From assembly GCF_000155675.2 (NCBI RefSeq), contig NC_020911.1, forward strand, positions 3,028,501-3,092,500: a DNA stretch of 64,000 nucleotides, given 5' to 3'. Positions 30,566 through 56,707 of this stretch are shown piece after piece; within the stretch, counting starts at the first letter, position 1, and each line of letters opens with the position of its first letter. Position numbers and translations under genes: made by a program. Under the pieces are notes generated by a model, which ran no database searches, was not told the DNA's origin, and was given only the letters and a program-made list of their open reading frames with translations. The stretch comes from Octadecabacter antarcticus 307. GTDB lineage: Bacteria > Pseudomonadota > Alphaproteobacteria > Rhodobacterales > Rhodobacteraceae.

Positions 30566-30930
30566 ATGGGACAAGTCCAGTTTGTTGCGATTGATAGTGC
30601 CACTCGCTAGGTCTTCATCCGCGTCTACAACAGCAAGACAGCGGCCAATGCGCGTCGCTTCATCCGCGACCTTGAGCGTGCCTCCTCACTGCGCATCCGC
30701 ACCATTCTTACCCCCTCTCGGGATATTGCTGCGCAATACCCTGCCGGCAATGGACAACGGAAAAGAGTTTACTGACCGACTGTTTGGTCTGCGTAAACGG
30801 GCGCAAAGCGGGAAGCATGAGTTCGACAAGCTCTGCACTGCACTGGAAATCGAACACCGACTGACCCCACCAAGATCACCACAAACCAACTGCATGGTGG
30901 AGCGGTTCAACGGACGCATCGAGGATGGGG
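30566..30930 (+). pseudogene. IS481-family transposase remnant
   Basis: Translates, with breaks, to QFVAIDSATR, stop, VFIRVYNSKTAANARRFIRD, RIRTIL, and then in another frame DNGKEFTDRLFGLRKRAQSG and PPRSPQTNCMVERFNGRIED, the rve core of IS481. A TAG replaces the usual Trp codon after SATR. A 40-nt hairpin insert at 30713-30752 lies exactly before the catalytic Asp codon of DNGKEF and shifts the frame. The rest of the element is gone; the GntR gene follows. Confidence 0.8.
30713..30752 (+). repeat. Hairpin insert H1 (in IS481 transposase)
   Basis: 40 nt beginning CCCTCTC and ending TGCCGGCAATG. The centre folds as GGG-a-TATTGC / GCAATA-CCC with loop TGC. It lies between ACC and GAC, the codons for Thr and catalytic Asp of LTDNGKEF. 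It belongs to the same family as the inserts at 50127, 50541, 56310 and 48080/49241. Confidence 0.85.
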
Positions 30931-30937
30931 GTGGAGA

Positions 30938-31621
30938 TCAGCTTTTTGCGCCAAGGGCAGGCAGCCCCATCAGATCTGAATACGACCGCTCTCCCCGTGT
31001 AATTTGCCGTTTCAGAACGGTATTTGCTGATTTCAATTTACCATCTCTCAGATGTTTCGTGATTGCACTATGTTCCTCAAAGGATTTTAAAGTACGTTCT
31101 GGTCGTTTTGACAGATGTGTCCGTATCGTTCTGACGATGTCGCTGACGTTCTGATATCCATCCTCCAAGTAACTGTTTCCGCAATGTATGAAAAATGCGT
31201 TGTGAAAATCGGCATCTAACTCGAGATATTCCTCGAACGCATCGACCTTTCGGGCTTCTGACATCTTAGACAAAAGGTCCTCAAGTTCGGCGAGTAGAGC
31301 GGTATAGTTTGCATCAAGGGCTTGGGCCATTGCAGCTGTTTCGAGGATCAATCGATACTGGCACAACTGTTCTACGCCCTTTTGAGACAGATCGAATACA
31401 AAAGCGCCGCGCTGTGGGATTATCTGAACAAGGCCTTGGAGTTTCAATGCGGCAAGCGCTTCGCGAATCGGGGTTTTGCTTATGCCTATTGCCTTCGAGA
31501 GCTTGGCTTCCTGAAGCTTCTCTCCCAGGGTAAAAGTTCCATTAACGATGCCCCTTCGAATATGCTCTTCCGCGATTTTACTTAAAGAATCCGGCCGTTT
31601 AAGTTGAATTATGTCTGACAT
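30938..31621 (-). CDS. GntR-family regulator (FCD subfamily)
   Basis: A 227-residue regulator. The winged helix is at residues about 12-75 (IRRGIVNGTFTLGEKLQEAK, then LSKAIGISKTPIREALAAL). The FCD ligand domain follows, with metal-site pattern D-x3-H (DADFHNAFF) and two further His (HSAITKHL and its preceding helix). It is divergent from the TRAP transporter genes. TGACATGTCA overlaps its own start codon (31616-31625), suggesting self-regulation. Confidence 0.9.
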   Translation of the reverse strand: MSDIIQLKRPDSLSKIAEEHIRRGIVNGTFTLGEKLQEAKLSKAIGISKTPIREALAALKLQGLVQIIPQRGAFVFDLSQKGVEQLCQYRLILETAAMAQALDANYTALLAELEDLLSKMSEARKVDAFEEYLELDADFHNAFFIHCGNSYLEDGYQNVSDIVRTIRTHLSKRPERTLKSFEEHSAITKHLRDGKLKSANTVLKRQITRGERSYSDLMGLPALGAKS

Positions 31622-31698
31622 GTCAACTCTCCTTGTTTCACAAAAAATAATGATAGCACAGGTTTTGTTGATTTATATAATATATCTGATATGTCAGA
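31616..31698. promoter_or_regulatory. Divergent operators between GntR gene and dctP
   Basis: Two palindromes lie in the 125-base divergent region: TGACATGTCA at 31616-31625, covering the regulator start codon, and TCTGATATGTCAGA at 31685-31698. The second resembles the TGATATATCA and ATCTGATATA sites between the SMP-30 and second GntR genes (46627-46664), which suggests shared or cross-regulation by FCD regulators. Confidence 0.65.
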
Positions 31699-31746
31699 CG
31701 TCAGGGTTATAGAAAACCCGCCAAAATCAATCCTTGGGAGGATACC

Positions 31747-32745
31747 TTGTTTAACAAATCCACATTCACACTCGGCGTCATTTTGTCGACCGGGCTTGCC
31801 GTCGCTGCATCCGCTGAAACAATCATCAAGATCGGGCATGGCGCAGCCGAGTCTTTCCATATGCATCGCGCACTTTTGCACTTCGAAGAACTTGTTGAGG
31901 CTGGCTCTGATGGCGAGATCGACGTACAGATATTCCCTTCCTCGCAGATGGGCCCTGATCGCGAAATGATTGAAGGTGTTCAAACCGGCGTTCTGGAAAT
32001 GGCAATCCCGCCTTCCTCATTCTTTGCGGGATGGGATCCAGCCTTTGCCGTCATCGAACTGCCGTACATGTATGCGTCCAAGGACATTGCTTTTGATGTA
32101 CTGGACAGCGCAGCCGGCGATGGCATGATCGAGCGGATCGAAAATCAAGGACTCGTTGGTCTTGGCTGGCTCGAATTGGGCGTACGCAATGTCACCAACA
32201 ACGTACGTCCAATCGCAACACCTGCCGATCTAGAGGGCGTCAAGCTGCGCACTATGCAGGTACCTGCCCACGTCGCGACTTTTCAAGCTCTCGGTGCCAA
32301 CCCGACGCCTATGAACTTTGGCGAAGTGTATTCAGCACTGCAGCAGGGTGTAATCGACGGGCAGGAAAACCCGCTTGCGATCATCACGTCTCAACGCTTC
32401 TACGAGGTTCAATCCTATCTCTCCACGACTGGCCACGTTTTTGCTGTGTACATGCCGGTTATCAGCCAACCGTTCTTTGCTTCGCTCTCGGACAAACACC
32501 AGCAGCTTGTTCGTGAATCGATGGCGTCTGCCCGTGTCTTTCAGGCCGATTTGGTTGCCTCGGAAGATGCGGCTCAACTGGAAGAAATCCGGGCTGCCGG
32601 TGTTGAAGTTCTTGAATTGACGGCTGAGCAACGTCAGGCGTTCGCTGACGCGACCGAAAGCGTCCGCTTGGACTATCGTGATGAGGTGGGCGCGGATACA
32701 TATGACGCATGGATCGCAGCTGTTGCCGAGGCAAGCGGCAACTAA
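31747..32745 (+). CDS. dctP: TRAP transporter solute-binding protein (DctP family)
   Basis: A 332-residue periplasmic protein. GGGAGG lies 6 bases before a TTG start at 31747, with no better ATG. Residues 1-22 form a signal peptide (LSTGLAVAASAETI). Family motifs: KIGHGAAESFHMH at the mature N-terminus, GPDREMIEGVQTG, and VKLRTMQVPAHVATFQALGA with the Arg that binds a carboxylate. NPTPMNFGEVYSALQQGVID follows. It binds an organic acid substrate for the DctQM permease. Non-ATG initiation may tune its level. Confidence 0.92.
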   Translation: MFNKSTFTLGVILSTGLAVAASAETIIKIGHGAAESFHMHRALLHFEELVEAGSDGEIDVQIFPSSQMGPDREMIEGVQTGVLEMAIPPSSFFAGWDPAFAVIELPYMYASKDIAFDVLDSAAGDGMIERIENQGLVGLGWLELGVRNVTNNVRPIATPADLEGVKLRTMQVPAHVATFQALGANPTPMNFGEVYSALQQGVIDGQENPLAIITSQRFYEVQSYLSTTGHVFAVYMPVISQPFFASLSDKHQQLVRESMASARVFQADLVASEDAAQLEEIRAAGVEVLELTAEQRQAFADATESVRLDYRDEVGADTYDAWIAAVAEASGN

Positions 32746-32768
32746 GCCGTTCCTGCAATTTCCAAATT

Positions 32769-32800
32769 GGGTGTCCATGGCCAAATGGGCCTGGGCACCC
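32769..32800 (+). promoter_or_regulatory. Intercistronic stem-loop between dctP and dctQ
   Basis: GGGTGTCC pairs with GGGCACCC around an inner GGCC/GGCC stem. No T run follows, so it is more likely an mRNA-stabilising or partial attenuating hairpin than a full terminator. This would fit the usual excess of binding protein over permease. Confidence 0.6.
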
Positions 32801-32823
32801 TCCATATTTTAGGGGTGGGAAAA

Positions 32824-33309
32824 ATGGCAATTCTGAAGTGGCTGGACCAAAACATAGAGAAAATGTTGGTTTCAATGCTCTTGGCGGCGATCGTGCTATT
32901 GATCTTCGCCAACGTAATAATGCGATACGTCATGAATGCGTCACTGTCATGGGGTGAAGAGCTGACGCTTTGGTTTTTCGTTTGGTTTGTGTGGCTTGCT
33001 GTCAGCTACGCCTTTCAAAACCGCGAACATGTGCGCATCACCGTATTGCGTGACCTGCTCAGTGAACGAGTGCGTTTATATGCAGACATTGTCATAGACC
33101 TGCTTGTCCTAGCGTTTTTGGTGATGCTGACGATTGAATGCGTCAAGTTGATTATGCTGCCCTTTGTGGCCAGCCAAAATTCTGTCGTTCTCGGCCTCCC
33201 GATCCCAATCCTTTATGCTTCTGCACCCGTCGGCGCGGCGCTGTCGTCAATCCGCGTGGTCCAGAATTTGATCAGAACAGTGCGCACCATCTCCGCCCAC
33301 AAAACCTAG
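32824..33309 (+). CDS. dctQ: TRAP transporter small permease subunit (DctQ family)
   Basis: 161 residues from ATG 32824 (MAILKWLDQ); an upstream in-frame start lies within the hairpin. It has four membrane helices, with MRYVMNASLSWGEELTLWFF as the DctQ signature and RITVLRDLLSER between helices 2 and 3. It pairs with DctM in the inner membrane for Na+-driven uptake. It ends 11 bases before dctM. Confidence 0.9.
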   Translation: MAILKWLDQNIEKMLVSMLLAAIVLLIFANVIMRYVMNASLSWGEELTLWFFVWFVWLAVSYAFQNREHVRITVLRDLLSERVRLYADIVIDLLVLAFLVMLTIECVKLIMLPFVASQNSVVLGLPIPILYASAPVGAALSSIRVVQNLIRTVRTISAHKT

Positions 33310-33320
33310 GAGCGAACAAA

Positions 33321-34604
33321 ATGCTTGCTGCAACAATATTTATTTCACTGTTTGCCCTCCTCCTCATGAGTGTTCCTATTGGTATTTGCCTTGGACTTGC
33401 GACGATGATCGCAATGCTGTTCGTTGACGGGACGCCGCCTATGGTCTTGTTGGCACGGTCGGTCGTCACCGGCGCGGATTCTTTCCCGTTGATCGCTGTT
33501 CCGTTGTTCATTCTGGCCGGAGACTTGATGCAACACGGCGGCATGTCACGCCGGCTGGTCAGCTTCGCCAATGCCCTTATCGGTCATATCCATAGTGGCT
33601 TGGCTTATGTAAATGTGCTGGCTTGCGTTTTCTTCGCCGCGATATCTGGATCATCGCCTGCAACAGTCGCCGCAATCGGATCGAACATGATCCCGGAAAT
33701 GGAAAAAGTCGGCTATTCTCGGCGTTTCAGCGGCGCATTGACCGCATCCTCCGGCATGATCGGGGTGATGATCCCGCCCAGCATTCCATTCATCATCTAT
33801 GGCGTCACCGCAGAAGTCTCGATTGGAAAATTGTTCCTTGCAGGCATCATTCCAGGTGTGCTGTTCGCGGTCATGTTCATGTTTGTTGCGCGTCTACTGC
33901 TGCGTAACGACACCGAAATACAGGAATCAACTACAGAGTTTTCAACCGTTGGCGTATTGCAGAGTTTCCGCGAATCTATTTGGGCGCTTTTAGTGCCAGT
34001 GATCATCCTAGGCGGTATTTACAGCGGTGTATTTACGCCGACCGAGGCGGGAGCAGTTGCTGTGGTCTATGCAGCCGTTATCGGAATATTCGTTTATGGT
34101 GATATCAGGTTACGCGATCTACCCAATATATTGGCAGGCAGCGCAAAGACCAGTGGGACCATCCTCGTTCTGGTGATCATGGCGACTGCTTTTGGAAGAT
34201 TGATCACACTGGCACGAATTCCCACTGAGTTATCCGCCTCCATCACAAGCCTTTCTGACAATCCAATCATCATTTTGCTGCTCATCAACCTATTACTGTT
34301 GGTCATCGGAATGTTCATGGAGACGATTTCGTCAATTATTATCATGACACCGATCCTCCTGCCCGTTGCGACGGCGCTAGGAGTCGACCCCATTGCCTTT
34401 GGTGTAATCCTCACTGTCAATTTAGCAATCGGGTTTTGCACTCCACCTCTGGGGGTGAATCTGTTTGTTGCAAGCAGCATTTCAGGCGTTTCTATCGAAC
34501 AGCTGAGCAAGGCGATCCTGCCGTTCTTCGTCGGCATGATCATTCTTTTGATGCTGATTACCTACGTGCCAGCGATTTCACTGGCTTTGCCGTCACTTTG
34601 GTAA
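33321..34604 (+). CDS. dctM: TRAP transporter large permease subunit (DctM family)
   Basis: 427 residues from ATG 33321, which has TAGGAGCG upstream; a longer frame upstream overlaps dctQ and is not used. About 12 helices. Signature segments: ISGSSPATVAAIGSNMIPEM, MIPPSIPFIIYGV, PTEAGAVAVVYA, and GFCTPPLGVNLFVAS near the end. It forms the transport channel with DctQ and DctP. Confidence 0.93.
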   Translation: MLAATIFISLFALLLMSVPIGICLGLATMIAMLFVDGTPPMVLLARSVVTGADSFPLIAVPLFILAGDLMQHGGMSRRLVSFANALIGHIHSGLAYVNVLACVFFAAISGSSPATVAAIGSNMIPEMEKVGYSRRFSGALTASSGMIGVMIPPSIPFIIYGVTAEVSIGKLFLAGIIPGVLFAVMFMFVARLLLRNDTEIQESTTEFSTVGVLQSFRESIWALLVPVIILGGIYSGVFTPTEAGAVAVVYAAVIGIFVYGDIRLRDLPNILAGSAKTSGTILVLVIMATAFGRLITLARIPTELSASITSLSDNPIIILLLINLLLLVIGMFMETISSIIIMTPILLPVATALGVDPIAFGVILTVNLAIGFCTPPLGVNLFVASSISGVSIEQLSKAILPFFVGMIILLMLITYVPAISLALPSLW

Positions 34605-34650
34605 CCAGAGCGATCCGACACGCGAAGTGCAACAGAATTGGAGGACCCGG

Positions 34651-35796
34651 ATGGATCTCGACTTGTCTCACCCATCGATAGAAGACTTAAGGCAGGCCGC
34701 ACGCAGACGCATTCCAAAGTTCGCCTTCGAGTACCTTGATAGTGCGACAGGTAGGGAGCTGGGGCTGAAGACAAATCGTGACGCTCTCGACGCAATCGGG
34801 TTTATGCCCAGCGTGTTATGTGGTCGCACCAAAGCTGACCTTCAGACCACTTTGCTCGGGCAGAAATATGATCTGCCGTTCGGGATCGCGCCGATAGGCA
34901 TGTCTGGCATGATGTGGGCCGGTGCCGAACGCATGCTCGCGCAAGCAGCTGTTGCGCATAACATTCCGTTTTCACTGTCTAGTGTTGCGGTCGCATCGCC
35001 CGAAGATGTTGCCCCCCACATCGGCAACAACGGGTGGTTTCAACACTACCCTGTGAAGTCCGCAGAATTGCGCAGAACAATGTTGCCTCGGATCAAGGCG
35101 GCGGGATTTCACACGCTTATAATCACCGTGGACGTACCCGAAGAAAGCAGGCGTGAGCGTCAAAGGCGCGCCAATCTGACCGTTCCTCCCAAAGCTGACC
35201 TTCGTACAATCGTTGAAATGGCTCAATGTCCTTCATGGTGTCTTGCGCACCTGCGGGAAGGCATCATGCCAAGGATGCGATTCTTCGACGACTATGTCCC
35301 TCAACGTGGCCGGGAAAGCTTCACGCATGCTGGCGCTTTAATACGCGGCATCCCAGACTGGCAATATCTGCAGGAGCTCCGTCAGGAATGGGATGGCCAT
35401 CTGGTCGTGAAAGGCGTTCTGCGGCCAGAAGATGCTGCACGAATGGCAGCTGAAGGTGTGGATTGTATTTGGGTTTCAAACCATTCTGGGCGTCAATTCG
35501 AAGCCGGACCGGCCGTCATTGAACAGCTTCCGAAAATCCGAGAAGCCGTTGGTCCAGATGTTCCGCTCATCTACGATTCCGGTGTGGCCTGGGGAATGGA
35601 CATCATGCGTGCGTTGGCCAAGGGCGCAGACTTCGTCATGGTTGGACGCGCCTTTCAGTTCTCCGTTGCAGCCTTCGGCGCACGCGGTATCGACCACCTA
35701 ATACACATTTTGAAGGCCGACATCGAGGCCAACATGAGCCAACTTGGTGTCGAGAACATCAACCGATTGGCTGAATATCTTCTGTTGAACGACTGA
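34651..35796 (+). CDS. FMN-dependent alpha-hydroxyacid oxidase/dehydrogenase
   Basis: 381 residues from the ATG at 34651 (MDLDLSHPS), which has TTGGAGGACC upstream. FMN-barrel motifs: PFGIAPIGMSGM, WFQHYPVKS (Gln131, Tyr133), VVKGVL (Lys254) and VSNHSGRQF (His278, Arg281, the substrate-binding base and Arg). The loop has SNHSGRQ where most relatives have SNHGGRQ. It oxidises an L-2-hydroxyacid such as L-lactate or a sugar-derived acid to the 2-oxoacid. It follows dctM by 46 bases, so the TRAP system probably imports its substrate. Confidence 0.85.
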   Translation: MDLDLSHPSIEDLRQAARRRIPKFAFEYLDSATGRELGLKTNRDALDAIGFMPSVLCGRTKADLQTTLLGQKYDLPFGIAPIGMSGMMWAGAERMLAQAAVAHNIPFSLSSVAVASPEDVAPHIGNNGWFQHYPVKSAELRRTMLPRIKAAGFHTLIITVDVPEESRRERQRRANLTVPPKADLRTIVEMAQCPSWCLAHLREGIMPRMRFFDDYVPQRGRESFTHAGALIRGIPDWQYLQELRQEWDGHLVVKGVLRPEDAARMAAEGVDCIWVSNHSGRQFEAGPAVIEQLPKIREAVGPDVPLIYDSGVAWGMDIMRALAKGADFVMVGRAFQFSVAAFGARGIDHLIHILKADIEANMSQLGVENINRLAEYLLLND

Positions 35797-36276
35797 TGAT
35801 CACGCAAGCGATCACGACCAGTTCGGAGGGGAACGGCGTCAGACATTAATTACTCCATCGGCGTATTCCACACCATTTTGTAGGGTGCTGTCTACGAATT
35901 TATCTTTGGCCGTTTTGTCGAAACAGACCTATTTGAAAATGGGAGGTCGCACGGCCACCCATCTGGATACCTACGCACGAAACACTCGGGAAGATAGATG
36001 CGAAGTGCCTTCCTCAATCGGCTCTCTAATGGAATTATAGGAGTCCGTTTCGCTTCGGCTCCATCTTCTGGTGAGAACCCGATTGTCATGTTCGTCTCTT
36101 TGATGTCCCAACGTATACCGTGTTTCGCATGGCAAAGGTCAATCAACTTTTGACCGACATGACCATTGCCCAGAAGTTTGGGTATGCGTTTGCAAGAGTT
36201 GTAAAAAAATTAGGTCCGCAAACAATCCCAAGCCAAGACTAATTTTGGTCTTTCAGGCCACAAGACACTATTTCCT
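35797..36276. other. Gene-free stretch between convergent operons
   Basis: 480 bases between the hydroxyacid oxidase gene and the cupin gene, which read toward each other. An 84-codon minus-strand frame at 35892-36146 has no family features. No strong terminator hairpin is obvious by eye. This is the meeting point of the two operons. Confidence 0.4.
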
Positions 36277-36801
36277 TTACCGAATAAATTGTTGAACGAA
36301 ATCAGCTCCCAAGCCAACCTCTTCATAGTGCTTTTTGCATGCATCAATCTTGCTGAACACGTCCTCATAACCCAAAATCTCACCCCATGGGTCAACGTAA
36401 CACATCACTCCGTTAACCTGAAAATAGGTGATCATCTCTTCAACGCCCTCAGGTACCACCAGCGTATGTGTCTCGCCGGGAGGCTCATATACATAGCTAC
36501 CTTCTTCGGCCATCCAATCATGTTCAAGATAATGCCATCGTCCCTTTAAAACGAAACCATGCACAGGCTGAGGATGGCGATGCCGTGACAGCACGCCTGA
36601 TTTACGCACGCGCAACAGGTTCATCCAGTACCCTTGCGAACGATTAAGACACAGTGGGCGGAACCATACATTATCGGCTTGAGGGACCCAATGACGTTCA
36701 TCTTCGGGAATTGCGTGGGGTATGACGATCTCTTGCTGCGCGTCCGCCGGGAAAGGCAGCTGATACGGTGTGCGTTCGTCGTAGTTATTCTTATCGACCA
36801 T
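36277..36801 (-). CDS. Cupin protein, 2,4'-dihydroxyacetophenone dioxygenase-like
   Basis: A 174-residue single-domain cupin. Metal motif 1 is RHRHPQPVHGFVLKGRWHYLEHD and motif 2 is YVYEPPGETHTLVVPEG; the three His and Glu typical of cupin metal sites are present. YLEHDWMAEEGSYV is the signature of the dihydroxyacetophenone-dioxygenase-like family, whose members outside the founding enzyme are mostly uncharacterised. It is last in the long minus-strand operon, 13 bases after an SDR gene. Confidence 0.75.
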   Translation of the reverse strand: MVDKNNYDERTPYQLPFPADAQQEIVIPHAIPEDERHWVPQADNVWFRPLCLNRSQGYWMNLLRVRKSGVLSRHRHPQPVHGFVLKGRWHYLEHDWMAEEGSYVYEPPGETHTLVVPEGVEEMITYFQVNGVMCYVDPWGEILGYEDVFSKIDACKKHYEEVGLGADFVQQFIR

Positions 36802-36814
36802 CCTGGGCCTCCTC

Positions 36815-39732: not shown

Positions 39733-39744
39733 TTTCGCCTCCTG

Positions 39745-41263: not shown

Positions 41264-41288
41264 TGATAGGCTCCTTTGTTGTTTTAAC

Positions 41289-45710: not shown

Positions 45711-45733
45711 TGTGTCCTCCCAGACCGTTGATT

Positions 45734-46621: not shown

Positions 46622-46626
46622 CTGAT

Positions 46627-46664: not shown

Positions 46665-46667
46665 ACT

Positions 46668-47351: not shown

Positions 47352-48079
47352 TATCGTTTTTTGTGCGGGTTCATGCCCTCGTTAGAGCTGAACTTCATCC
47401 ATGAAACCGGACAGTTTAGTTATTGACCCTATACGGCCATTTTCCAAGTCATATTATTGAAGGCCTGTTGTGGCGTTTGATGTCCGACACCGGAATGGCG
47501 ACGCTGGCGGTTATAGAAGACTTCGATGCATTCAAAGATTGCAACCTTGGCTTGAGCTCGCCTTTTAAACCGCTGACGATGCACCAATTCCTTTTTCAGT
47601 GAAACAAAGAAACTCTCCATCGGCGCATTGTCGAGGCACTCGCCCTTGCGGCTCATGGATTGAGTGAGCTGCACTTTTTTAATCAGTTTGCGATAGTCCC
47701 CACCAGCATATTGGCTGCCCCTATCGGAGTGGTGTATCAACCCCGGAACAGGGCCTCTGCGTCCCAGAGCCATCTCGAGGGCGGCGCAGCAAAGCTCAGC
47801 GCGCATTTAATCTTCCATCGCCCAGCCGACGATCTCACGCCAGCCAGATAAAGCCAGCCCTCGTCCGTGTCGATATAGGTGATGTCAGCCAGCCAAACCG
47901 TATTTGGTATCTGACTGTGAAACTTCTGTTCAAGCAGATTTGGGGAAGGCTTCAGCTTATGGTTGCTGTCCGTCGTAATTGGCTTTCTACGCTCGCGCAG
48001 AAGTGTAAATACCTTGTTCTCCTTCATTATTCTGGCCACGCGTCGTTCAGAAACGATCTCATCAGCCGCTAGAAGATCC

Positions 48080-48085
48080 CCCTCT
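48080..48085 (+). repeat. Hairpin insert H5, left part (split by IS110)
   Basis: CCCTCT at this position continues at 49241-49271 after the IS110 element. Joined, the 37-nt insert reads CCCTCTC, then GTGAATG-TTT-CATTCAC as the stem-loop, then TGCCGGCAGTG before GATG. It occupies the same site as H4 in copy B. Confidence 0.75.
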
Positions 48086-49240
48086 TGTCTTATGATTTTG
48101 GCAGTTCCTATGCGAAGCTGGAACAGCTGCCCGGCACGTCATTTATGTCAGGCAGCGGCGGAGGTTGGATCGTTCCCCTCTTGGTCGTTGTGGACCGTCG
48201 CTGAGTAAGGTCACCTCCGTCTTTTTTTGAAACCTGAACGGATACTTGGGCTTTGGGCCCACATGACAAGACAAGGTTAGGAAGAGACACATGGAAGATA
48301 CCATTGGGATCGACATTTCGAAAGACACATTGGACGCTTATTGGTTGTCCTCGCGAGAGCACAGGCAGTTTTGCAATGACAAAGCTGGCGCTAAGGCACT
48401 CGCATTTCGGGCGAGAAAAACAGAAGTTTCCCGCGTCATTTTTGAAGCAAAAGGCATTTATCACAGGTGCATCGAAACGGGCTTGGCTCAAAACGGGATC
48501 AGCTTTGCACGGGTCAATCCGCGTCAGGCCCGCCGGTTCTGCGAAGGGACTGGCCAGCTGGCTAAAACGGACCGGGTGGACGCTGCGCTATTAGCTAAAA
48601 TGGGCGCACTTCTGGAATTGAGAGCGGACCAACCCAAAAGCGAAACACTTCATGATCTCAAGCAGTTGGCGACTGCCAGGCTTGCATTGATCAAAGACCG
48701 AACTGCAGCAAAAGCACGACTTACCGCGACGACGCACAGGATGCTTTCCCAGCAGATCAAACGACGTCTAAAACAGATCGAACGTGACTTGTCGCAAGTT
48801 ACCGAGGCAATCGATACCATCGTTGCGGCAGACAAAGATCTCGCTGTACGCACCGAAATTCTTACAAGCATTCCGGGCATCGCAAAGATAACAGCCTGTG
48901 CGATCCTAACCGAAAGGCCCGAACTCGGACATTTGAGTGGCAAGCAAGCAGCGGCGCTGGCGGGCCTTGCAACTATATCGAGGCAATCGGGAAAGTGGCA
49001 AGGCAAGGAACGCATCCAGGGCGATCGTGCCAGCGTCAGGCGCGCTATCTATTTGCCGGATATTGTTGATACACGCTTCAATCCAGACATGAAAGCAAAA
49101 TACGAACAGCTGATATCGGCCGGGAAATGCAAGAAGCTGGCGATCACAGCCGTTATGCGAAAGCTGATTGTCACCGCAAATGCCCTTCTGCAGGATCAGC
49201 GAAAATGGGGCGAATATCCAGCTTGACCAATACGGATACT
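48086..49240 (+). mobile_element. IS110-family element inserted in a hairpin
   Basis: About 1155 bp with no obvious inverted ends or target duplication, as is usual for IS110. Its borders are set by comparison with copy B, where the hairpin is unbroken. Insertion fell between CCCTCT and C of insert H5. A 200-base non-coding stretch precedes the transposase gene, where IS110 elements carry their bridge RNA. Confidence 0.8.
48291..49226 (+). CDS. IS110-family DEDD transposase
   Basis: A 311-residue protein that appears complete. The RuvC-like DEDD residues are in IGIDISKDT (Asp), FEAKGIYH (Glu) and KTDRVDAALLAKM (two Asp). The C-terminal Tnp20-like domain has SIPGIAKITACAILTERPEL, LAGLATISRQSGKW and the catalytic Ser region around RASVRRAIY. 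An alternative ATG lies at 48291 only; the ribosome-binding site is GGAAGAG. Confidence 0.92.
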   Translation: MEDTIGIDISKDTLDAYWLSSREHRQFCNDKAGAKALAFRARKTEVSRVIFEAKGIYHRCIETGLAQNGISFARVNPRQARRFCEGTGQLAKTDRVDAALLAKMGALLELRADQPKSETLHDLKQLATARLALIKDRTAAKARLTATTHRMLSQQIKRRLKQIERDLSQVTEAIDTIVAADKDLAVRTEILTSIPGIAKITACAILTERPELGHLSGKQAAALAGLATISRQSGKWQGKERIQGDRASVRRAIYLPDIVDTRFNPDMKAKYEQLISAGKCKKLAITAVMRKLIVTANALLQDQRKWGEYPA

Positions 49241-49271
49241 CAGTGAATGTTTCATTCACCTGCCGGCAGTG
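49241..49271 (+). repeat. Hairpin insert H5, right part
   Basis: Carries GTGAATG-TTT-CATTCAC and the terminal palindrome CTGCCGGCAG plus TG, followed by GATG. See 48080-48085 for the other part. Confidence 0.75.
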
Positions 49272-49496: not shown

Positions 49497-49780
49497 TCAT
49501 GGTTTCACCGCCCGCATTGGGAAAAAAGCGGCTGCTTTGTGCAAAATCTCCACGTCCTTAGCAAGCCGCTTGTTGTCTTTGCGAAGGCGGACCAATTCAG
49601 CCGCATCGGCTTGCTGACGCCGTTTGGCCTCAACTGAGCCAAATGCCTCTATCTCAAGCCGCCACGTCTTCAACTGCGTACCCGTGATTCCGAGCTCCTT
49701 GGCAACGTTGCCTTGCGTCGCCCCAGGCTAACTGCCGCCGCCTTATAATCGTCTGTATACTTCCGCCGCTGCTGTCCCAT
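49497..49780 (-). pseudogene. IS3 orfA, copy A, frameshifted
   Basis: Begins ATGGGACAGCAGCGG at 49780 and encodes GQQRRKYTDDYKAAAV. It then loses 13 bases relative to copy B (which continues ERLYEPGATQGSVAKEL) and goes out of frame. The remainder still encodes TQLKTWRLEIEAFGSVEAK in another frame. Confidence 0.8.
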
Positions 49781-50126
49781 TCGGTGCACTGAACTTCGCC
49801 CCTTAAACCGGACAGTTTAGTTATTGACCCTATGCGGCCATTTCCCAAGTCATATTATTGAAGGCCTGTTGCGGCGTTTGATATCCGACGCCAGAATGGC
49901 GACGCTGGCGGTTATAGAAGACCTCGATGTATTCAAAGATAGCAGCCTTGGCCTGGGCACGTGTTTTGAAGCGCTGACGGTGCACCAGTTCCTTTTTCAG
50001 TGAGGCAAAAAAGCTTTCCATAGGCGCATTGTCGAGGCACTCGCCCTTGCGGCTCATGGACTGGGTAAGCTCCGCCTTTTTGATCAGTTTGCGATAGTCC
50101 CCACCAGCATATTGGCTGCCCCTATC

Positions 50127-50167
50127 CACTGCCCGGCAGGGTTATGCGAAGCATGATCCCGAGAGGG
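50127..50167 (-). repeat. Hairpin insert H2 (in IS3 orfB, copy B)
   Basis: 41 nt read on the minus strand: CCCTCTC, then GGG-ATC-ATGC / GCAT-AA-CCC, then TGCCGGGCAGTG, lying between TCC and GAT. Copy A at the same place (47720-47732) reads CACTCCGATAGG without it, so this is a precise presence/absence difference of 41 bases. Confidence 0.9.
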
Positions 50168-50540
50168 GGAGTGGTGTATCAACCCCGGAACAGGGCCTCT
50201 GCGTCCCAGAGCCATCTCGAGGGCAGCGCAGCAAAGCTCAGCGCGCATGTGATCCTCCATCGCCCAGCCGACGATCTCACGCGTGGCCATGTCCTTCACG
50301 CCAGCCAGATAAAGCCAGCCTTCGTCCGTGTCGATATAGGTGATGTCGGCCAGCCAAACCGTATTAGGTGTCTGGCTGTGGAACTTCTGTTCCAACAGAT
50401 TTGGGAAAGGCTTCAGCTTGTGATTGCTGTCCGTCGTGATTGGCTTTCTACGCTTGCACAGAAGTGGAGATACCTTGTTCTCCTTCATTATTCTGGCCAC
50501 GCGTCGTTCAGAAACGATCTCATCAGCCGCTAGAAGATCC

Positions 50541-50577
50541 CCCTCTCGGTGAATGTTCCATTCACCTGTCGGCAATG
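50541..50577 (+). repeat. Hairpin insert H4 (in IS3 orfB, copy B)
   Basis: 37 nt on the plus strand, that is antisense to the transposase gene: CCCTCTC, GGTGAATG-TTC-CATTCACC (8-bp perfect stem), TGTCGGCAATG, then GATGAA. Upstream flank is AGATCC. The same site in copy A holds H5, so this insert predates separation of the two copies. Confidence 0.8.
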
Positions 50578-50802
50578 GATGAATACGCTTTGATCCGTAA
50601 CATTTCTTACTGACTCTGAAGAAGGCTCTGATCTTGGGCAGCAACTCCTGATCCCGCGCGTCACGATCAGCTCGACGTTGATCACGTGCAGGCTGACTGG
50701 CCGGAAATCCGTAGAACCAGCCTCGGGATATCTCCAGAAGACGGCATAATATTAAAACCGCATATTGAGTTTTATGGGCAGTGACGAAAGCGCGCTTGTT
50801 CG

Positions 50803-51099
50803 TCATGGTTTCACCGCCCGCGTCGCGAAAAAAGCGGATGCTTTGTGCAAAATCTCCACTTCCTCAGCAAGCCGCTTGTTGTCTTTGCGAAGGCGAACCA
50901 ATTCAGCCGCGTCGGCTTGCTGACGCCGTTTAGCTTCAACTGAGCCAAATGCCTCGATCTCAAGCCGCCACGTCTTTAGCTGTGTACCAGTGATTCCGAG
51001 CTCCTTGGCAACGCTGCCTTGCGTCGCCCCAGGCTCGTACAGTCGCTCAACTGCCGCTGCCTTATAATCGTCTGTGTACTTCCGTCGCTGTTGTCCCAG
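50803..51099 (-). CDS. IS3-family transposase OrfA, start codon changed to CTG
   Basis: An open frame of about 98 codons: GQQRRKYTDDYKAAAVERLY, GSVAKELGITGTQLKTW (helix-turn-helix), then RLRKDNKRLAEEVEILHKAS (zipper). The homologous ATG of copy A is CTG here, so translation is weak or absent. The stop overlaps the orfB ATG (ATGA). Confidence 0.7.
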   Translation of the reverse strand: MGQQRRKYTDDYKAAAVERLYEPGATQGSVAKELGITGTQLKTWRLEIEAFGSVEAKRRQQADAAELVRLRKDNKRLAEEVEILHKASAFFATRAVKP

Positions 51100-51114
51100 T
51101 TGGTGCCCCTTTCA

Positions 51115-51143
51115 CGGACAGGGGTAAAGTACCCCAATGTCCG
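51115..51143. repeat. Perfect-stem hairpin at an IS3/IS5 junction
   Basis: CGGACA-GGGGTA-AAG-TACCCC-AA-TGTCCG folds into a 12-bp stem with a two-base bulge. It lies in the roughly 50-base junction between the end of IS3 copy B and an IS5 fragment. It begins with CCCCTTTCA just upstream, loosely like the CCCTCTC start of the hairpin inserts, but lacks their TGCCGGCA end. Confidence 0.5.
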
Positions 51144-51164
51144 GGAACAGGGACGTGGTTCAAT

Positions 51165-51586
51165 CCGGAGCGTCACAGCGGACAGTGCATACGATACACG
51201 CAAATGCCACGATACTATTGCGGCTCGCAATGCCCATGCCGTCAATCCACCGCGTAAAAACGCCAAACCGTGGAGTCCTGATACGCCCGGTGTGAGGGCG
51301 TGAAACGAAGCTGTCTGATCCTCAAAATATCTAGGGCGTGCGTTGTGGCATCAGTTGCCTGGTTATCACCGCCGAAGCCGCGTTGAGACGAAAATGCGTT
51401 GTGTGAAACTGCTTGGTCAACGCCTCTCAGCGCGTGACTTCGATCGGCAGGTCGCGGAAATCCAATCCGTGCTGCGACCCTTAACGGGTTCACCTCACTT
51501 GGCATTCCCAGAATAGTCGCTGTAGGCTAAGTCAGTCTCGGGTAAGGGGAAGCATGAGCTCAAGCTGATTTGTGCAACAAAGCCCG
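51165..51586 (+). pseudogene. IS5-family transposase fragment with element end
   Basis: Related to the 3' part of the IS5 element at 55683-56773, in the opposite orientation: SVTADSAYDTRKCHDTIAAR, then PRKNAKPW and YHRRSRVETKMRCVKLLGQR (first two in one frame, last in another). It ends in the IS terminus GATTTGTGCAACAAAGCC. The 5' two thirds are missing and several frameshifts are present. Confidence 0.75.
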
Positions 51587-51643
51587 GTTCGAAAGTAAGT
51601 CTCAGATCAGTAATACAAGCATTATAATTCTCAAAATAACCGA

Positions 51644-51672
51644 TTGACAAACTAACATGTTACCTTTTAAAT
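51644..51672 (+). promoter_or_regulatory. Sigma70-type promoter with embedded palindromic operator
   Basis: TTGACA (51644-51649), 17-base spacer and TTAAAT (51667-51672) fit a -35/-10 pair. The spacer holds the perfect palindrome TAACATGTTA (51653-51662). The site precedes a 40-codon open frame and then the third GntR gene, so autoregulation is plausible. Confidence 0.6.
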
Positions 51673-51699
51673 GGGCATTAATGTACTTGGGAGAAAAAC

Positions 51700-51822
51700 A
51701 TGACTTACTACTTCACCTTTGTCAGCGGAGGATCTTTGGGGTCACTTTTGGCGGATCAGTTAGCTTATGCTGGGGCTATAGAAGAGATGCTAGCAGCTAG
51801 CGTTAGGGGCAAAAAACCTTGA
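51700..51822 (+). CDS. Short open reading frame (40 aa), unknown
   Basis: ATG 51700 preceded by TTGGGAGAAAAAC, a good ribosome-binding site, and by the promoter at 51644-51672. The product contains GGSLGSLLADQLAYAGAIEE and no recognisable domain. It may be a small protein, a leader peptide or the start of a gene lost in rearrangement. Between it and the GntR gene (51823-52029) I see no supported gene. Confidence 0.45.
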   Translation: MTYYFTFVSGGSLGSLLADQLAYAGAIEEMLAASVRGKKP

Positions 51823-52029
51823 TTTGGATGAACACCAGCTTTGAAGAACGGCTCCGAGCCGAAAAGTTCATGTGGTTTCAAAAACCCACAGCCAAGCAAC
51901 ACCTACAACCCCGTCAGCCTGCGGCATTGAATAAAAAGGTTATAGGCAGGAGGCCGTCAGTCAACGCGATGGTCTTTATTTGTGGGCGGGCTGCGCAACT
52001 TGTGTCGAGTAAGTAAGCGGGGAAGCACT

Positions 52030-52686
52030 ATGACCATGATTGAAAGGCCTAAGCAGATTTCAGAGATTGTTACGGACCGCCTGCGTAGCGACATAGTAAA
52101 TGGCACATATCAACTCGGTGAGAAGCTTTCAGAAAAACTGTTATCGCAAATTTATGGCGTCACTAAAGCCCCAATCCGAGCGGCTTTCAGGCGTCTGCAA
52201 ACCGAAGGCCTAATTGATATTCGTGCGCAATCAGGTACCTATGTTTTCAAGCTCGAGACACAGCAATTAACATCGCTGTGTCATCTGCGGACAGCGCTTG
52301 AACTAGAGGCCGTCCACCTTGCACTTCAAACGGCCCAAAGCGACTGCCACGCCCGTTTGAGTAATATCTGTTTACTGATGACCAACGCCTTGAAGCAGGG
52401 CCAACAGGACAAATATCAAAAACTGGACACCGATTTCCACCTAGCACTGTTCCAAGCAGCGCAATCCCCGTTGCTGCTATCGACCTTTGAAGCGCAGGTC
52501 TCTTCAACATTCGCCGCCCTTCGTCATCACTTTGCGAAAATTGAACCACAAATTGAGGCCTCGATGAATGAACACATTGAAATCTGCAATCTAGTTAAGT
52601 TGGGCGATCTCAAGTCTCTAAATGAGGTTCTACGTCTCCACATCGAAAACTCTCGCGTTTATTACAACGCTGTTGTTGGTGGCTGA
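52030..52686 (+). CDS. GntR-family regulator (FCD subfamily)
   Basis: 218 residues from ATG 52030 (MTMIERPKQISEIV). Winged helix: LRSDIVNGTYQLGEKLSEKL, then YGVTKAPIRAAFRRL. FCD domain with DTDFHLALF and MNEHIEICNL providing His ligands. The recognition helix has PIRAAFRR where the other two regulators have P(I/V)REAL, so its operator may differ. It probably controls the glyoxalase and oxidase genes downstream. Confidence 0.88.
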   Translation: MTMIERPKQISEIVTDRLRSDIVNGTYQLGEKLSEKLLSQIYGVTKAPIRAAFRRLQTEGLIDIRAQSGTYVFKLETQQLTSLCHLRTALELEAVHLALQTAQSDCHARLSNICLLMTNALKQGQQDKYQKLDTDFHLALFQAAQSPLLLSTFEAQVSSTFAALRHHFAKIEPQIEASMNEHIEICNLVKLGDLKSLNEVLRLHIENSRVYYNAVVGG

Positions 52687-52729
52687 TAGATATCCGTTCC
52701 CTACGGCAAATCTAAAAAAGGAAATAACA

Positions 52730-53122
52730 ATGACTGAACTTCGCTTGATGCACACAATGCTGCGGGTCCGCGACCTTGACGCGTCAATCGCATTTTATAC
52801 TGACTTTCTGGGTATGCAGTTAATCAAAAAGGACGATTTTCCTGACGGCGGCTTCACGCTCGCTTTTGTTGGATATGGAGAGGAAAAGTCCAACACTTTG
52901 ATCGAGCTGACATATAATTACGGAGATAACGAATATGAGATCGGCACCGCCTATGGTCACATCGCATTGGAAACGGCGGATATCCACGCGACAGTAGATT
53001 TATTGAAAAAGGGCGGCGCGGTCTTCACCCGCGAGCCAGGTCCAATGTTGCACGGTACAACAGAGATCGCGTTTCTCAAAGATCCCGACGGCTATATGAT
53101 CGAACTGGTACAGCCCGATTGA
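52730..53122 (+). CDS. gloA: Lactoylglutathione lyase (glyoxalase I)
   Basis: 130 residues from ATG 52730, with AAAAAAGGAAATAAC upstream. The Ni/Zn ligands of bacterial glyoxalase I are visible: His7 region LMHTMLRV, Glu in TLIELTYNYG, His in GHIALET, and Glu in DGYMIELVQ. REPGPMLHGTTEIAFLKDPDG is the family signature. It converts the methylglyoxal-glutathione adduct to S-lactoylglutathione. The neighbouring GlcD-type oxidase would suit lactate or a related hydroxyacid. Confidence 0.9.
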   Translation: MTELRLMHTMLRVRDLDASIAFYTDFLGMQLIKKDDFPDGGFTLAFVGYGEEKSNTLIELTYNYGDNEYEIGTAYGHIALETADIHATVDLLKKGGAVFTREPGPMLHGTTEIAFLKDPDGYMIELVQPD

Positions 53123-53391
53123 TAAAGACGATCCTGCATACATGCGATCAACGTGACTTCTCTGCTCCAAAACATAACACAAGATATTAGAGCATGATAC
53201 AATGAGTTCTGCTTGTAGCATACCAAAGCTGAAAAAAGGGGTGCGATCCCTCACTCACGAGGTTTCTGTCAATCCCGAAATGGCTACAGATATTCCTGTC
53301 CACGGCAGTGGTTGGTCCACTGGCGCTTTGATATCTTTGACGTGGCCGGACGATCCAAAACTAACAGAACAGCACATAAGGATACTCAAAA
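53123..53391. other. Gene-free stretch between gloA and the FAD oxidase
   Basis: An 88-codon open frame from ATG 53202 overlaps the oxidase start and has no recognisable features. The oxidase ATG at 53392 has AAGGATACTCAAAA upstream. No clear terminator. Confidence 0.4.
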
Positions 53392-54813
53392 ATGACACCT
53401 GCACAAACTTCCTCAGATGTCGTAGCTGCACTTCGCAACGGGTTCGCGACCGACCTCTATATCACTGAACCCGACTTATTGAGATCCTACGCAAATGATG
53501 AAACTGGAACCTATTTTGGATTGCCTCTTGCGATTGCGCGCCCGCGTTCTGCTACGGAACTTTCACATGTTTTGGTAAGATGTCACGAGTTAGATGTCAA
53601 CGTCGTACCACAAGGAGGACTAACCGGCCTCGTCGGTGGAGCAATCTCAAGTTTCGAGGCACCTGAACTGGTCATCCTTTTGGACCGTATGAATGCGATT
53701 AGATCGATCGATAAGGTTGGGTTTTCCATGGTCCTTGAGGCTGGATGCGTTCTGGAAACAGCCAAGCTCGCGGCGGATGAGCAGGACTGCCAGCTACCGA
53801 TAACGTTTGGATCACAAGGGACGTGCAGCATTGGTGGCAATGTCTCTACAAACGCTGGTGGGTACAACGTGCTGCGTTATGGAATGACGCGGGATCTAGT
53901 CCTCGGCCTTGAGGTCGTCCTTCCTGACGGACGTATCTGGAATGGGCTAAAGACCTTGCGAAAAGACAATCGCGGCTATGATCTAAAGCAAATATTTATC
54001 GGAGCGGAAGGGACGCTGGGCATCATTACTGCCGTGGCGCTTAAACTGTTCCCCAAACCAACGCAGGTCGAGACAGCGCTGATCGGATGCGCCTCAGTAG
54101 AGGACGCGATGGCGTTTTATGCCAAGGCGCGCCGCAACTGCACAGACCTGTTATCAGCTTTTGAAATAATCCTTCGGCCAGGCATGGAGCTTGCTTTTGC
54201 TACCAAATCTGACCTCAAAGATCCTCTCGAAAACCCATGCCCTGTCTACATTCTAATGGAACTTGCCGCGGGCAACGGCATCAGTCTTCGTGGTGTCTTG
54301 GAAAGTTGTCTAGAGGACGCTGGGGACTTGATTCTTGATGGTGTGATTGCCATGAGTAAGGCGCAAGCGATGGGCCTTTGGGCATATCGCGAAACGATGG
54401 TAGCGGGCCAGAGCGCCGGTGGTGCTTACTACCGCACAGACGTTTCGGTCCCGATCAAGTCTATTCCAGCGTTTCTGGATGACGCATTAAGTTCGCTGGC
54501 CAATCTGCTCCCAAACGGACGACCGATTACCTACGGCCATGTCGGTGACGGCAATATCCACTTGAACGTCATACCACCCACTGACTGGTCAATGGAACAG
54601 CGTAAGGCACTTTTTGTGCAGGCAGAATATCTAATTTTCGCTGCAGTAGACCGGTTCGGCGGAAGTATAAGCGCGGAGCATGGCATAGGCCGTTCAAAAA
54701 AAAGCGCGTTTCTGCAACGGATCGATCCCATAACGCTGGACTTGTTTAAGCAGATCAAGCGCATTTTTGATCCGGATGAACGCCTTAGCAAAGGAAGAAT
54801 TTTCGACCTCTGA
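53392..54813 (+). CDS. FAD-binding oxidase, GlcD/D-lactate dehydrogenase type
   Basis: A 473-residue flavoprotein. The FAD-binding PCMH domain has VVPQGGLTGLVGGAI and GTCSIGGNVSTNAGGYNVLR, followed by GAEGTLGIITAVALKLFP. The C-terminal FAD oxidase domain has TYGHVGDGNIHLNVIPP (metal-site His) and SISAEHGIGRSKK. The family oxidises D-2-hydroxyacids such as D-lactate, glycolate or 2-hydroxyglutarate. Next to glyoxalase I, D-lactate is a reasonable but unproven substrate. Confidence 0.9.
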   Translation: MTPAQTSSDVVAALRNGFATDLYITEPDLLRSYANDETGTYFGLPLAIARPRSATELSHVLVRCHELDVNVVPQGGLTGLVGGAISSFEAPELVILLDRMNAIRSIDKVGFSMVLEAGCVLETAKLAADEQDCQLPITFGSQGTCSIGGNVSTNAGGYNVLRYGMTRDLVLGLEVVLPDGRIWNGLKTLRKDNRGYDLKQIFIGAEGTLGIITAVALKLFPKPTQVETALIGCASVEDAMAFYAKARRNCTDLLSAFEIILRPGMELAFATKSDLKDPLENPCPVYILMELAAGNGISLRGVLESCLEDAGDLILDGVIAMSKAQAMGLWAYRETMVAGQSAGGAYYRTDVSVPIKSIPAFLDDALSSLANLLPNGRPITYGHVGDGNIHLNVIPPTDWSMEQRKALFVQAEYLIFAAVDRFGGSISAEHGIGRSKKSAFLQRIDPITLDLFKQIKRIFDPDERLSKGRIFDL

Positions 54814-54928
54814 TCTCGGTTTCAACTTCCACGACACACCAATGACTTCCCTTGGCGCTGCGGTAGTGGTCACACCAGTAACGTTTGGAGTTTTGCTCCT
54901 GAAGCTCGAAAAACAGAAAAGTGTTACT

Positions 54929-55672
54929 ATGAAATATACTATGAAGCACCTGCTTATTATTGATGACGACGCAAAGATCGTGAGCTTTCTGAAAGGCTTT
55001 TTCGAAAGTCACGGCATCAAGGTATCGACTGGGTCTTCTGGCAACGAGATGTGGCAGGCACTTGAAAGCGAAAAAATAGATTTTGTCATTCTGGACGCCT
55101 TGATGCCAGGGACAAACGAAAACACGTTGTGTAGCGAATTGAAATCTCAATCAAACGTACCGACAGTGCTTATGACTGCTCTCGATGGCGAAACCAACAT
55201 TATTGTCGGGCTTGAAGCCGGTGCCGATGACTATGTGGTTAACCCATTTAATCCATGCGAGCTGCTCGCTCGGATGCGTGCAGTTTCACGACGCAACAAC
55301 TCCAATTTCAGCATGTCCCAGACAAACATATCAACGATCTTTTCGTTTAGTAGCTTCCAATTTGACACAAGACGCCGCGAACTGCGAGCATCCGAAAATG
55401 TTCTTGTTCACCTCAGTCGGACTGAATTTGAATTATTGAAAATTTTTGTTCATAGACCGTCTGAAGCCATTGATCGCAACACGCTTTCTGAACTGTTGCG
55501 TGGTCACGAGCTGGAAGCTTTTGACCGGTCAATCGATCTTCATGTCAGCAGATTGCGCAGTAAACTCGGACCACGAGTTGGCGGTGGCAATTTTATTAAA
55601 ACAGTTCGGGGAACCGGGTATATGTTCGACCTTGAAGTGACGGAAAGCCAATATGGTCTTGTCCCAGTTTAG
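54929..55672 (+). CDS. OmpR-family response regulator with altered receiver site
   Basis: About 247 residues from ATG 54929 (MKYTMKHLLIIDDD); 54941 is an alternative. Receiver: acidic pair Asp12-Asp13, phosphoacceptor Asp56 in VILDALMPG, and Thr83 in LMTALD. The invariant Lys, expected in ADDYVVKPF, is Asn105 (ADDYVVNPF). The winged-helix output domain includes LSRTEFELLKIFVHRP, SIDLHVSRLRSKLG and KTVRGTGYMF. No sensor kinase gene is present; an IS5 element starts 11 bases after the stop. Confidence 0.85.
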   Translation: MKYTMKHLLIIDDDAKIVSFLKGFFESHGIKVSTGSSGNEMWQALESEKIDFVILDALMPGTNENTLCSELKSQSNVPTVLMTALDGETNIIVGLEAGADDYVVNPFNPCELLARMRAVSRRNNSNFSMSQTNISTIFSFSSFQFDTRRRELRASENVLVHLSRTEFELLKIFVHRPSEAIDRNTLSELLRGHELEAFDRSIDLHVSRLRSKLGPRVGGGNFIKTVRGTGYMFDLEVTESQYGLVPV

Positions 55673-55736
55673 GGCTCTGTTGGGCTTTGTTGCACAAATC
55701 GTCTTGAAGACGTGCTTACCCTTACCCCAGACGGAT

Positions 55737-56707
55737 TCAGCCTACAGCTTCTGTTTGGGGTATGCCAAGGGCGGTGAAGCCATTTAGGATCGCGGCACGG
55801 ATTTGGATCTCCGCAACTTGCCGGTCGAAGTCTCGTGCAGAGAGACGTTGGCCGAGTAATTTCACACAATGCATTTTGGTCTCAACGCGGCTTCGGCGAT
55901 GATATCCAGACAGCTGCCGCCACAATGCCCTTCCTAGATACTTTGAGGATCGAACTGCTTCGTTTCGCGCCCTCGCACCGGGCGTGTCAGGCTTCCAAAG
56001 TTTGGCGTTTTTGCGCGGCGGGATAACTGCATGGGCATTGCGTGCCGCAATCGCATCGTGGCATTTGCGCGTATCGTATGCACCGTCCGCTGTAACACTC
56101 CCGATCTCTTCGTCTGGTGGGATCTGGTTGAGCAAATCAGGGAGCACAGGCGCATCACCAATGCTGCTGCTGGTTGCCTCGATTGCACTTATTTCCAGTG
56201 TTTTCTCATCGATCCCGATATGTATCTTGCGCCAGAGGCGGCGTTTTGACCCGCCATGCTTACGCGCATTCCACTCACCTTCACCCTCCGCTTTGATGCC
56301 TGTGCTGTCCACTGCCCGGCAGTCGAAACATAGTTTCGATGAGAGGGGATCAGAAGGTGCAGCGGCCCCGCTGACCCTCGGTATGGAAGAGCAACGTTCA
56401 AAGTCCTTTGCCGCCGACACAATGTGCTGAAGTCCGGCACCGCCCAATCCAGCCCAACCAATTTCAGCAGGCTTTCTACAAACCCAGTCGTCTGCCTTAA
56501 GGGCAGACCAAACAAGACTTTGAAGGTTAGGCAAGCTTGAATGGCAGCATCACTGTAGGTTTGCTGACGCCCCCTTCGACCAGACGCGTCCGCTTCCCAA
56601 ACCATCTGCGGATCAAACCAGATCGATAACGATCCTCGTTGTTTGAGTGAAAAATTGTAATCCGCCCAGTTTCGGGTCTTGTACTTCGTCGGTGTCCAGT
56701 TGCTCAT
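55737..56707 (-). pseudogene. IS5-family transposase broken by hairpin insert H3
   Basis: The 5' part from 56707 reads MSNWTPTKYKTRNWADYN through GRQQTYSDAAIQACLTFKVL to GPLHLLI. The 38-nt insert follows. The 3' part then reads DSTGIKAEGEGEWNARKHGG (first catalytic Asp), TADGAYDTRKCH (second Asp) and YHRRSRVETKMHCVKLLGQR (Glu). Without the insert the frame would be continuous and the transposase about 310 residues and normal. Confidence 0.88.
56310..56347 (-). repeat. Hairpin insert H3 (in IS5 transposase)
   Basis: 38 nt on the minus strand: CCCTCTC, A, TCGAAAC-TAT-GTTTCGA (7-bp perfect stem), CTGCCGGGCAGTG. It lies between ATC and GAC of LHLL-I-D-STG, directly before the catalytic Asp codon. 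The same ends as H1 and H2 with an unrelated stem sequence. Confidence 0.9.

Follow-up and report, generated by a model that had tools for sequence, protein, structure and literature searches.

The window analysed here is a stretch of 64,000 nucleotides from Octadecabacter antarcticus 307 (contig NC_020911.1, positions 3,028,501 to 3,092,500), in which insertion sequence (IS) transposase genes of IS481, IS3 and IS5 type are interrupted by short hairpin-forming inserts with fixed ends. As an earlier note on this DNA had reported, there are five such inserts, four of them complete (H1 to H4) and one split (H5). Each comprises CCCTCTC, a stem-loop and TGYCGG(G)CARTG. The features are given below in window coordinates; bit scores are those of the covariance model R1, for which 36 distinct elements, all of one length class, were used.

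30713..30752, plus strand: H1, hairpin element of 40 nt in an IS481-type transposase gene, sense to the gene (59.6 bits)
47720..47731, minus strand: the H2 site as found unoccupied in IS3 copy A, the junction being at about 47725^47726 and the flanks 93% identical
48080..48085, plus strand: left piece of H5, CCCTCT, in IS3 copy A at the same site as H4
48086..49240, plus strand: element within H5 that we take to be of the IS110 family, with an open reading frame (ORF) of 311 aa at 48291-49226
49241..49271, plus strand: right piece of H5, in IS3 copy A
50127..50167, minus strand: H2, hairpin element of 41 nt in IS3 copy B, sense to the gene (64.8 bits)
50541..50577, plus strand: H4, hairpin element of 37 nt in IS3 copy B, antisense to the gene (28.3 bits)
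56310..56347, minus strand: H3, hairpin element of 38 nt in an IS5-type gene, sense to the gene (33.6 bits)

The insertion points of H1, H2 and H3 lie ahead of the Asp in TDNG (IS481-type gene), HSDRG (IS3 copy B) and DSTG (IS5-type gene), respectively, presumably motifs of IS481, IS3 and IS5 transposases. H4 and H5 represent one site in two IS3 copies, H5 being interrupted by the IS110-family element. Shuffled windows gave no pattern matches and Rfam no match at gathering score in the window.

The search for further copies that the earlier note proposed shows the hairpin to be abundant beyond the window. The genome of O. antarcticus 307 (G000; two contigs, 4,875,481 bases, the larger of 4,812,600) contains 100 matches to a strict pattern and 196 to a looser one (107 forward, 89 reverse); the reversed control pattern finds none. 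The covariance model gives 201 matches at E ≤ 0.01, a few of them overlapping, in 864 kb of G000, a non-random sample for which hairpin-rich stretches were picked in addition to the window. Over whole genomes it finds at least 150 in G000, 106 in G395, 33 in G013 and 15 in G055. At least one pattern match is present in 129 of 394 sampled Rhodobacteraceae genomes, some single matches being due to chance since the reversed control gives single hits in 18 of the 394 (our own count). Within the genus Octadecabacter 10 of 19 genomes have matches, G395 coming second with 47. A published comparison (PMC3646047) lists 1175 transposable-element genes for O. arcticus 238 against 626 for O. antarcticus. 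G395, which we take to be O. arcticus 238, would have approximately twice the transposable-element genes of G000, yet has approximately a quarter of its pattern matches (47 against 196).

A scan of named genomes recovered at least 120 stretches, almost all from Rhodobacteraceae or Rhodobacterales among the matches listed. The few listed from outside belong to Vreelandella, Labrenzia, Cohaesibacter and metagenome-assembled genomes labelled Planctomicrobium and Robiginitomaculum. Hairpins beyond Rhodobacteraceae were seen at L161 and L216 (a Vreelandella neptunia contig), L181 and L262 (Labrenzia) and L254 (Cohaesibacter), and point to transfer with mobile elements. Nine stretches in a viral collection also contain the pattern; no enzyme was seen, and viral carriage was rejected as an explanation.

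The element consists of CCCTCTC, a stem-loop and then a fixed 3' end, TGCCGGGCARYG, with a small fixed hairpin (TGC CGG GCA) following the variable stem-loop. Its size is approximately 37-45 nt: the 37-41 nt originally described holds for the window inserts, but elsewhere lengths reach about 45 nt. The stems, first described as unrelated, do differ but belong to types that recur (all fetched loci together give 215 distinct middles, copies being counted over overlapping loci). The 3' end is likewise fixed overall, except that the last-but-one insert base varies (T 48, C 18, G 3 in 69 site clusters of G000). Among 36 distinct 41-nt elements, a class in which a bulged A after pair 3 is common, pairing is kept in 95.6% of cells, and cells changed on both sides number 65 against 21 in shuffles. 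The covariation score is 0.429, compared with 0.116 (sd 0.016) when shuffled and at most 0.093 when slid, and none of 500 shuffles reaches it. Folding as single-stranded DNA backs the stem of H3 (z = -3.1) and of H4 (z = -4.2).

Empty sites were sought with queries across the insertion junctions; for 60 of 149 a match spanned the junction with the insert's length missing, no fewer than four of these matches being further copies that bear a hairpin. Identity to the filled sites is 98.5, 95.5, 93.0 and 92.9% for the four closest empty sites. At two of these, for an IS5 insert in G000 (98.5%) and for H2 in IS3 copy A (93%), the insert is the sole difference, and neither shows the target duplication expected of a miniature inverted-repeat transposable element (MITE) of a DDE transposon. 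In the manner of IS200/IS605, the closest empty sites and the site logos display insertion next to a favoured word, with no duplication of the target. The consensus at the cut is gCC^GAYg. In the 69 site clusters of G000, position -1 is C in 49, followed by G in 54, A in 47, Y in 56 and G in 40; in other genomes, where clustering was marred by short flanks (one false cluster of 29) and the counts rest on its 60 representatives, the figures are 46, 44, 39, 50 and 35. Location between C and GA(C/T), as claimed at the outset, thus stands as a preference but not as a rule.

Insert positions are not conserved, as might be the case for ordinary parts of the genes, but differ between family members. 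Homologous ISs, in G000 and elsewhere, can have quite different stems at one identical site, which implies repeated insertion or stem exchange and, together with the clean closest empty sites, led us to reject recombination among IS copies alone. Relative to the host frame 66 inserts are sense and 54 antisense (p = 0.32; p values treat copies as independent), and only 25 of 164 (11 of 69 in G000, 14 of 95 elsewhere) have a length divisible by three. The even orientation and mostly frame-shifting lengths argue against splicing or bypass and for mobility at the DNA level. We conclude with high confidence that the hairpin is real, numerous, structured and inserted at the DNA level. The earlier note had proposed a dedicated mechanism of insertion and, among other options, a non-autonomous hairpin element; both are supported by the hundreds of copies, the fixed ends, the target preference, the clean closest empty sites and the variety of stems per site.

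The DNA receiving the hairpin is largely that of ISs. A transposase-like frame lies within 75 nt at 120 of 164 sites (53 of 69 clusters in G000, 67 of 95 elsewhere), a non-independent count because the 25 seeds used, along with grown fragments, came from hairpin flanks and seed-giving sites match themselves. Hosts were labelled IS3, IS5, IS481, IS1182, IS110, IS21/IstB, IS66, IS630 and ISAs1, plus one integrase; the labels are our own, Pfam supporting 16 of the 25 transposase seeds and the rest being judged by eye, with one (IS110b) off frame. Scanning the flanks with Pfam gives a picture of the same kind (rve among 10 of 69 and 22 of 88 members), L227, an IS110-type host of an insert, matches PF02371, and at least 11 of 28 unclassified sites elsewhere are transposase by eye.

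In the G000 sample, repetitive DNA (defined as 200 bp or more at 70% inside the sample, which misses ISs occurring there once) makes up 14.9% and holds 105 of 147 stem-checked copies; the stem filter kept these 147 from 220 pattern hits, real copies being among the 73 dropped. Of the remaining 42, inspection by eye puts the majority in ISs single in the sample, and at least three are chance matches. None of the 201 model matches falls in twelve 20-kb repeat-free stretches (240 kb, approximately 25 kb outside ORFs), whose non-ORF part alone should hold 16-20 at the repeat rate if copies are treated as independent.

Some hosts are unusual. Two lone IS3-type remnants in G000 (L116, 14230-16901, and L042, 1200-2140) bear many hairpins each and look as if insertion went on after IS death. 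At L122 (3199-4968; C2:2703199-2704968 of G000) five hairpins in one orientation are found in an IS21-like pair, one of them ahead of the Asp in a Walker-B-like LLIIDELGY in the IstB-like frame. In other genomes, L087, L090, L092, L194 and L239 (two copies) have intergenic palindromic clusters containing the hairpin and resembling bacterial interspersed mosaic elements, with a G-rich stretch, GGGGGGCGG, on one side of the hairpin and another hairpin, of the form GCGCGG...CCGCGC or similar, on the other. These clusters are a possible reservoir of the element.

A form of IS481 with two antisense, frame-shifting hairpins is present at no fewer than 10 loci in G000 (L002, L005, L009, L016, L017, L036, L038, L043, L069 and L070) and complete at 8 of the 10 read (left CTAR, right CTAG). 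The completeness of these copies implies that they moved after the hairpin insertions. When all of G000 is probed across both hairpin junctions, with up to 3 mismatches allowed, a single hairpin-free IS481 relative is recovered, L317. It lies on the smaller contig, a plasmid, has an open frame of 331 aa and could be a source of transposase in trans.

The hairpins are themselves a target. The IS110-family element of the window sits after the CCCTCT of H5, with CT at both junctions; recombinase homology and a common core dinucleotide CT at both ends are as expected of that family. Its 311-aa protein has relatives at E ≤ 1e-60 in 16 of 394 genomes. One of these elements, L321 (approximately 1296-2450, G013), encodes a 69% identical protein and follows the CCCTCT of another hairpin; L322 (G152), seen on its left side only, and the fragment L214 (1-203) likewise follow CCCTCT. 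A second copy in G013, L336, follows GGCCATCT with no hairpin at its end, and 16 more distant loci had no such hairpin target in the positions examined. In G000 the insertion is a single one. An IS110-family element, then, precisely inserts into these hairpins. Upstream of the 311-aa ORF are two words, TTCCCCTCTTGGTC and AAGACAAG, of which the second complements the left end, CTTGTCTT; judged from sequence, they look like the target and donor guides of a bridge RNA. IS621 and the repetitive extragenic palindrome (REP) form a parallel case, beside which the hairpins could be set as a second naturally programmed IS110 target. Mobility of IS110 type was dropped for the hairpin itself, its two ends having no common core.

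Our preferred reading, to which we give a probability of about 0.6, is that the hairpin is a REP-like, non-autonomous single-stranded DNA hairpin element, moved in trans and spread by ISs. It would move as single-stranded DNA folded into its stem-loop, and an HUH (Y1-type) or similar enzyme would cut and join it in trans, recognising the fixed ends together with the stem's shape. The ISs would then multiply the hairpins and carry them between genomes, an intact IS relative acting in trans even where the insert breaks the transposase. This mechanism is favoured because insertion is clean, the ends are fixed, the stem is conserved in shape and a preferred word stands at one end. On the opposite strand that word reads 5'-CRTC and adjoins one hairpin end, just as a tetranucleotide adjoins one end of IS200/IS605 and REP elements.

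Several observations weigh against this reading. Pairs with any two-sided change number 7 of 12, no more than shuffling yields (116 of 500 shuffles attain this), and single-strand folding lends the modelled stem no support in H1 (z = -1.7) or H2 (z = -0.3), the best fold of each being a different one. The other two closest empty sites (95.5 and 92.9%) differ also at 1-3 bases directly before the cut, where there may have been a small sequence change. Insertion of single-stranded DNA alone does not account for the preference for IS DNA. Profile searches of carriers for REP-associated tyrosine transposases (RAYTs) and Y1_Tnp yielded no mover: of the 14 higher-copy carriers searched, G000 (24 matches) and G395 (48) are rich in Y1_Tnp, and G013, G067, G262, G075 and G213 have neither a Y1_Tnp nor a RAYT match by the profiles used. 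Finally, the IS200 ends in G000 look unrelated to the hairpin ends at the 8 of 24 loci read, so that IS200 TnpA as their source is not supported. Altogether, Y1_Tnp matches were found in 6 of 28 genomes searched. Such absences are only as reliable as the profiles, since PF01797 overlooks some RAYTs (G342, G250 and G294 have a RAYT match without a PF01797 match), and the mover may be gone from carriers that received hairpins with ISs. A split or autonomous version with ends 60-2500 bp apart was also sought, and all 37 pairings proved by eye to be neighbouring hairpins.

A more elaborate claim can be entertained: that a dedicated trans-acting system writes short hairpin cassettes, fixed at both ends and free in the stem, into the transposase genes of unrelated ISs from many families at C^GAYG, as an IS brake or as an IS-specialised selfish element, and serves in turn as target for an element of the IS110 family that has the hairpin end sequence in its noncoding left end. 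We regard this as tentative, an improbable but far from negligible account. Closely allied is the transposon silencing raised in the earlier note, namely an anti-transposon system, host-borne or selfish, that places hairpins in transposase genes on purpose and so inactivates ISs. The hairpin's near-restriction to IS DNA is what fits: transposase-like frames at most sites and in many IS families, repeat-free DNA devoid of model matches, and inserts that mostly shift the frame. It fits poorly with the spread of hairpin-broken IS481, complete at most of the loci read, and the target word is short and not IS-specific, hairpin copies are intergenic in other genomes and no genes of such a system were found. 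We judge it unlikely.

It might instead be supposed that the hairpins are passengers only, rare old insertions amplified by ISs, with an element no longer mobile and an IS bias due to ascertainment. An IS can indeed multiply a single site many times over (one site cluster has as many as 23 copies, overlapping fetches counted), and there are carriers without detected Y1_Tnp or RAYT. Against this, G000 alone has 69 site clusters, with many other sites elsewhere; a given site can hold different stems; a filled copy and its empty counterpart are 98.5% identical; and G395 is richer in transposable-element genes, if it is O. arcticus, but poorer in strict copies. We think this quite unlikely.

That these are ordinary REP sequences moved by RAYT would suit their size, hairpin, bulge, copy number and heterogeneous stems, and RAYTs score over the cut-off in 114 of 394 family genomes. 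G000, the richest carrier, is not one of them: its best match to the RAYT model NF047646 has E = 5.3e-11, and the two proteins scanned from its 24 Y1_Tnp matches are IS200 transposases that score 38.9 and 41.1 bits, far under the cut-off of 80. Other high-copy genomes also have no RAYT match, the eight RAYT loci fetched have no flanking hairpin by eye, the GTAG tag is absent from the fixed ends and the site consensus, and copies lie mostly inside transposase genes. RAYT is rejected as the mover in G000 and the explanation as a whole is very unlikely.

Scarcely plausible is the remaining suggestion of the earlier note, removal or bypass during expression, by which inserts would be skipped in translation or spliced out, as with mitochondrial byps, and so be harmless to the transposase: inserts do lie in otherwise long frames, double-hairpin IS481 has spread, and a loose pattern places a catalytic-type Asp after 13 of the 66 inserts in sense orientation, at least one of them mistakenly, and after 2 of the 54 in antisense, but that excess stems in part from the GAY target preference, both inserts of double-hairpin IS481 are antisense, as is H4, a hairpin-free IS481 relative is present to act in trans, and the even orientation and indivisible lengths described above led us to reject bypass or splicing as a general function.

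If the preferred reading of a REP-like element moved in trans is true, Rhodobacteraceae carry an undescribed element of this kind that has other mobile elements as its niche. The nested insertions, in their hundreds, could then be used to put past IS activity in order and to ask whether such nesting limits ISs. Broken or unclassified transposases in such genomes may partly stem from hairpin insertion. The fixed ends with a free but paired stem would amount to a natural experiment on an enzyme that reads shape over sequence.

No description of this hairpin was found in searches of open-licence PMC literature. Several known systems invite comparison. The boxes of integron attC sites are GTTRRRY, and attC was dropped on sequence alone. 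The byps of yeast mitochondria are tiny hairpin inserts inside genes with variable stems, a likeness that ends with the presence of the hairpins in both orientations (66 sense, 54 antisense, rather than sense only) and with lengths that mostly shift the frame. MITEs are likewise short, non-autonomous palindromic repeats, but the hairpin is without IS terminal inverted repeats and no target duplication was seen. IS200/IS605 elements and their minimal derivatives resemble it in their subterminal hairpins and in inserting, with no duplication of the target, beside a preferred word, but no TnpA-bearing version with hairpin ends was found and the IS200 ends of G000 differ. GTAG REPs and their RAYTs resemble it in hairpin, bulge, high copy number and proposed single-stranded DNA transposition, and differ in that the richest carrier has no RAYT over the cut-off and hairpins do not flank RAYT genes.

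The nearest described family is that of the CGTC-tagged REPs, which include Rickettsia RPE-4 and RPE-6, are without known transposase and can be intragenic (Di Nocera 2013, PMC3733652). According to the same source, their tag is an unpaired CGTC (or TGTC, CCTC) at one end, the first pairs are AT, stems are of 8-9 bp with loops of 4-5 nt, tails are CCA and location is mostly intergenic. On that description both are short alphaproteobacterial palindromes, heterogeneous in stem and able to lie within genes, with no dedicated transposase found; the hairpin has a CRTC-like word beside one end. The hairpin differs in its long fixed ends on both sides and in copies that lie mostly in transposase genes: its outer pairs are mostly G-C and its loop is of 3 (36 aligned elements, 41-nt class), its ends are CCCTCTC and TGCCGGGCARYG, and a transposase-like frame accompanies 120 of 164 sites. 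Because these terminal features and intergenic location are not shared, we do not class it with the CGTC REPs, and its CRTC seems more likely to be target than tag, since it is the flank preference (G 54, A 47, Y 56, G 40 of 69) read on the other strand. How a target is chosen without RAYT is an open question for the CGTC REPs that the hairpins, if rightly interpreted, would help to test. The hairpin does, however it is classed, work like a REP.

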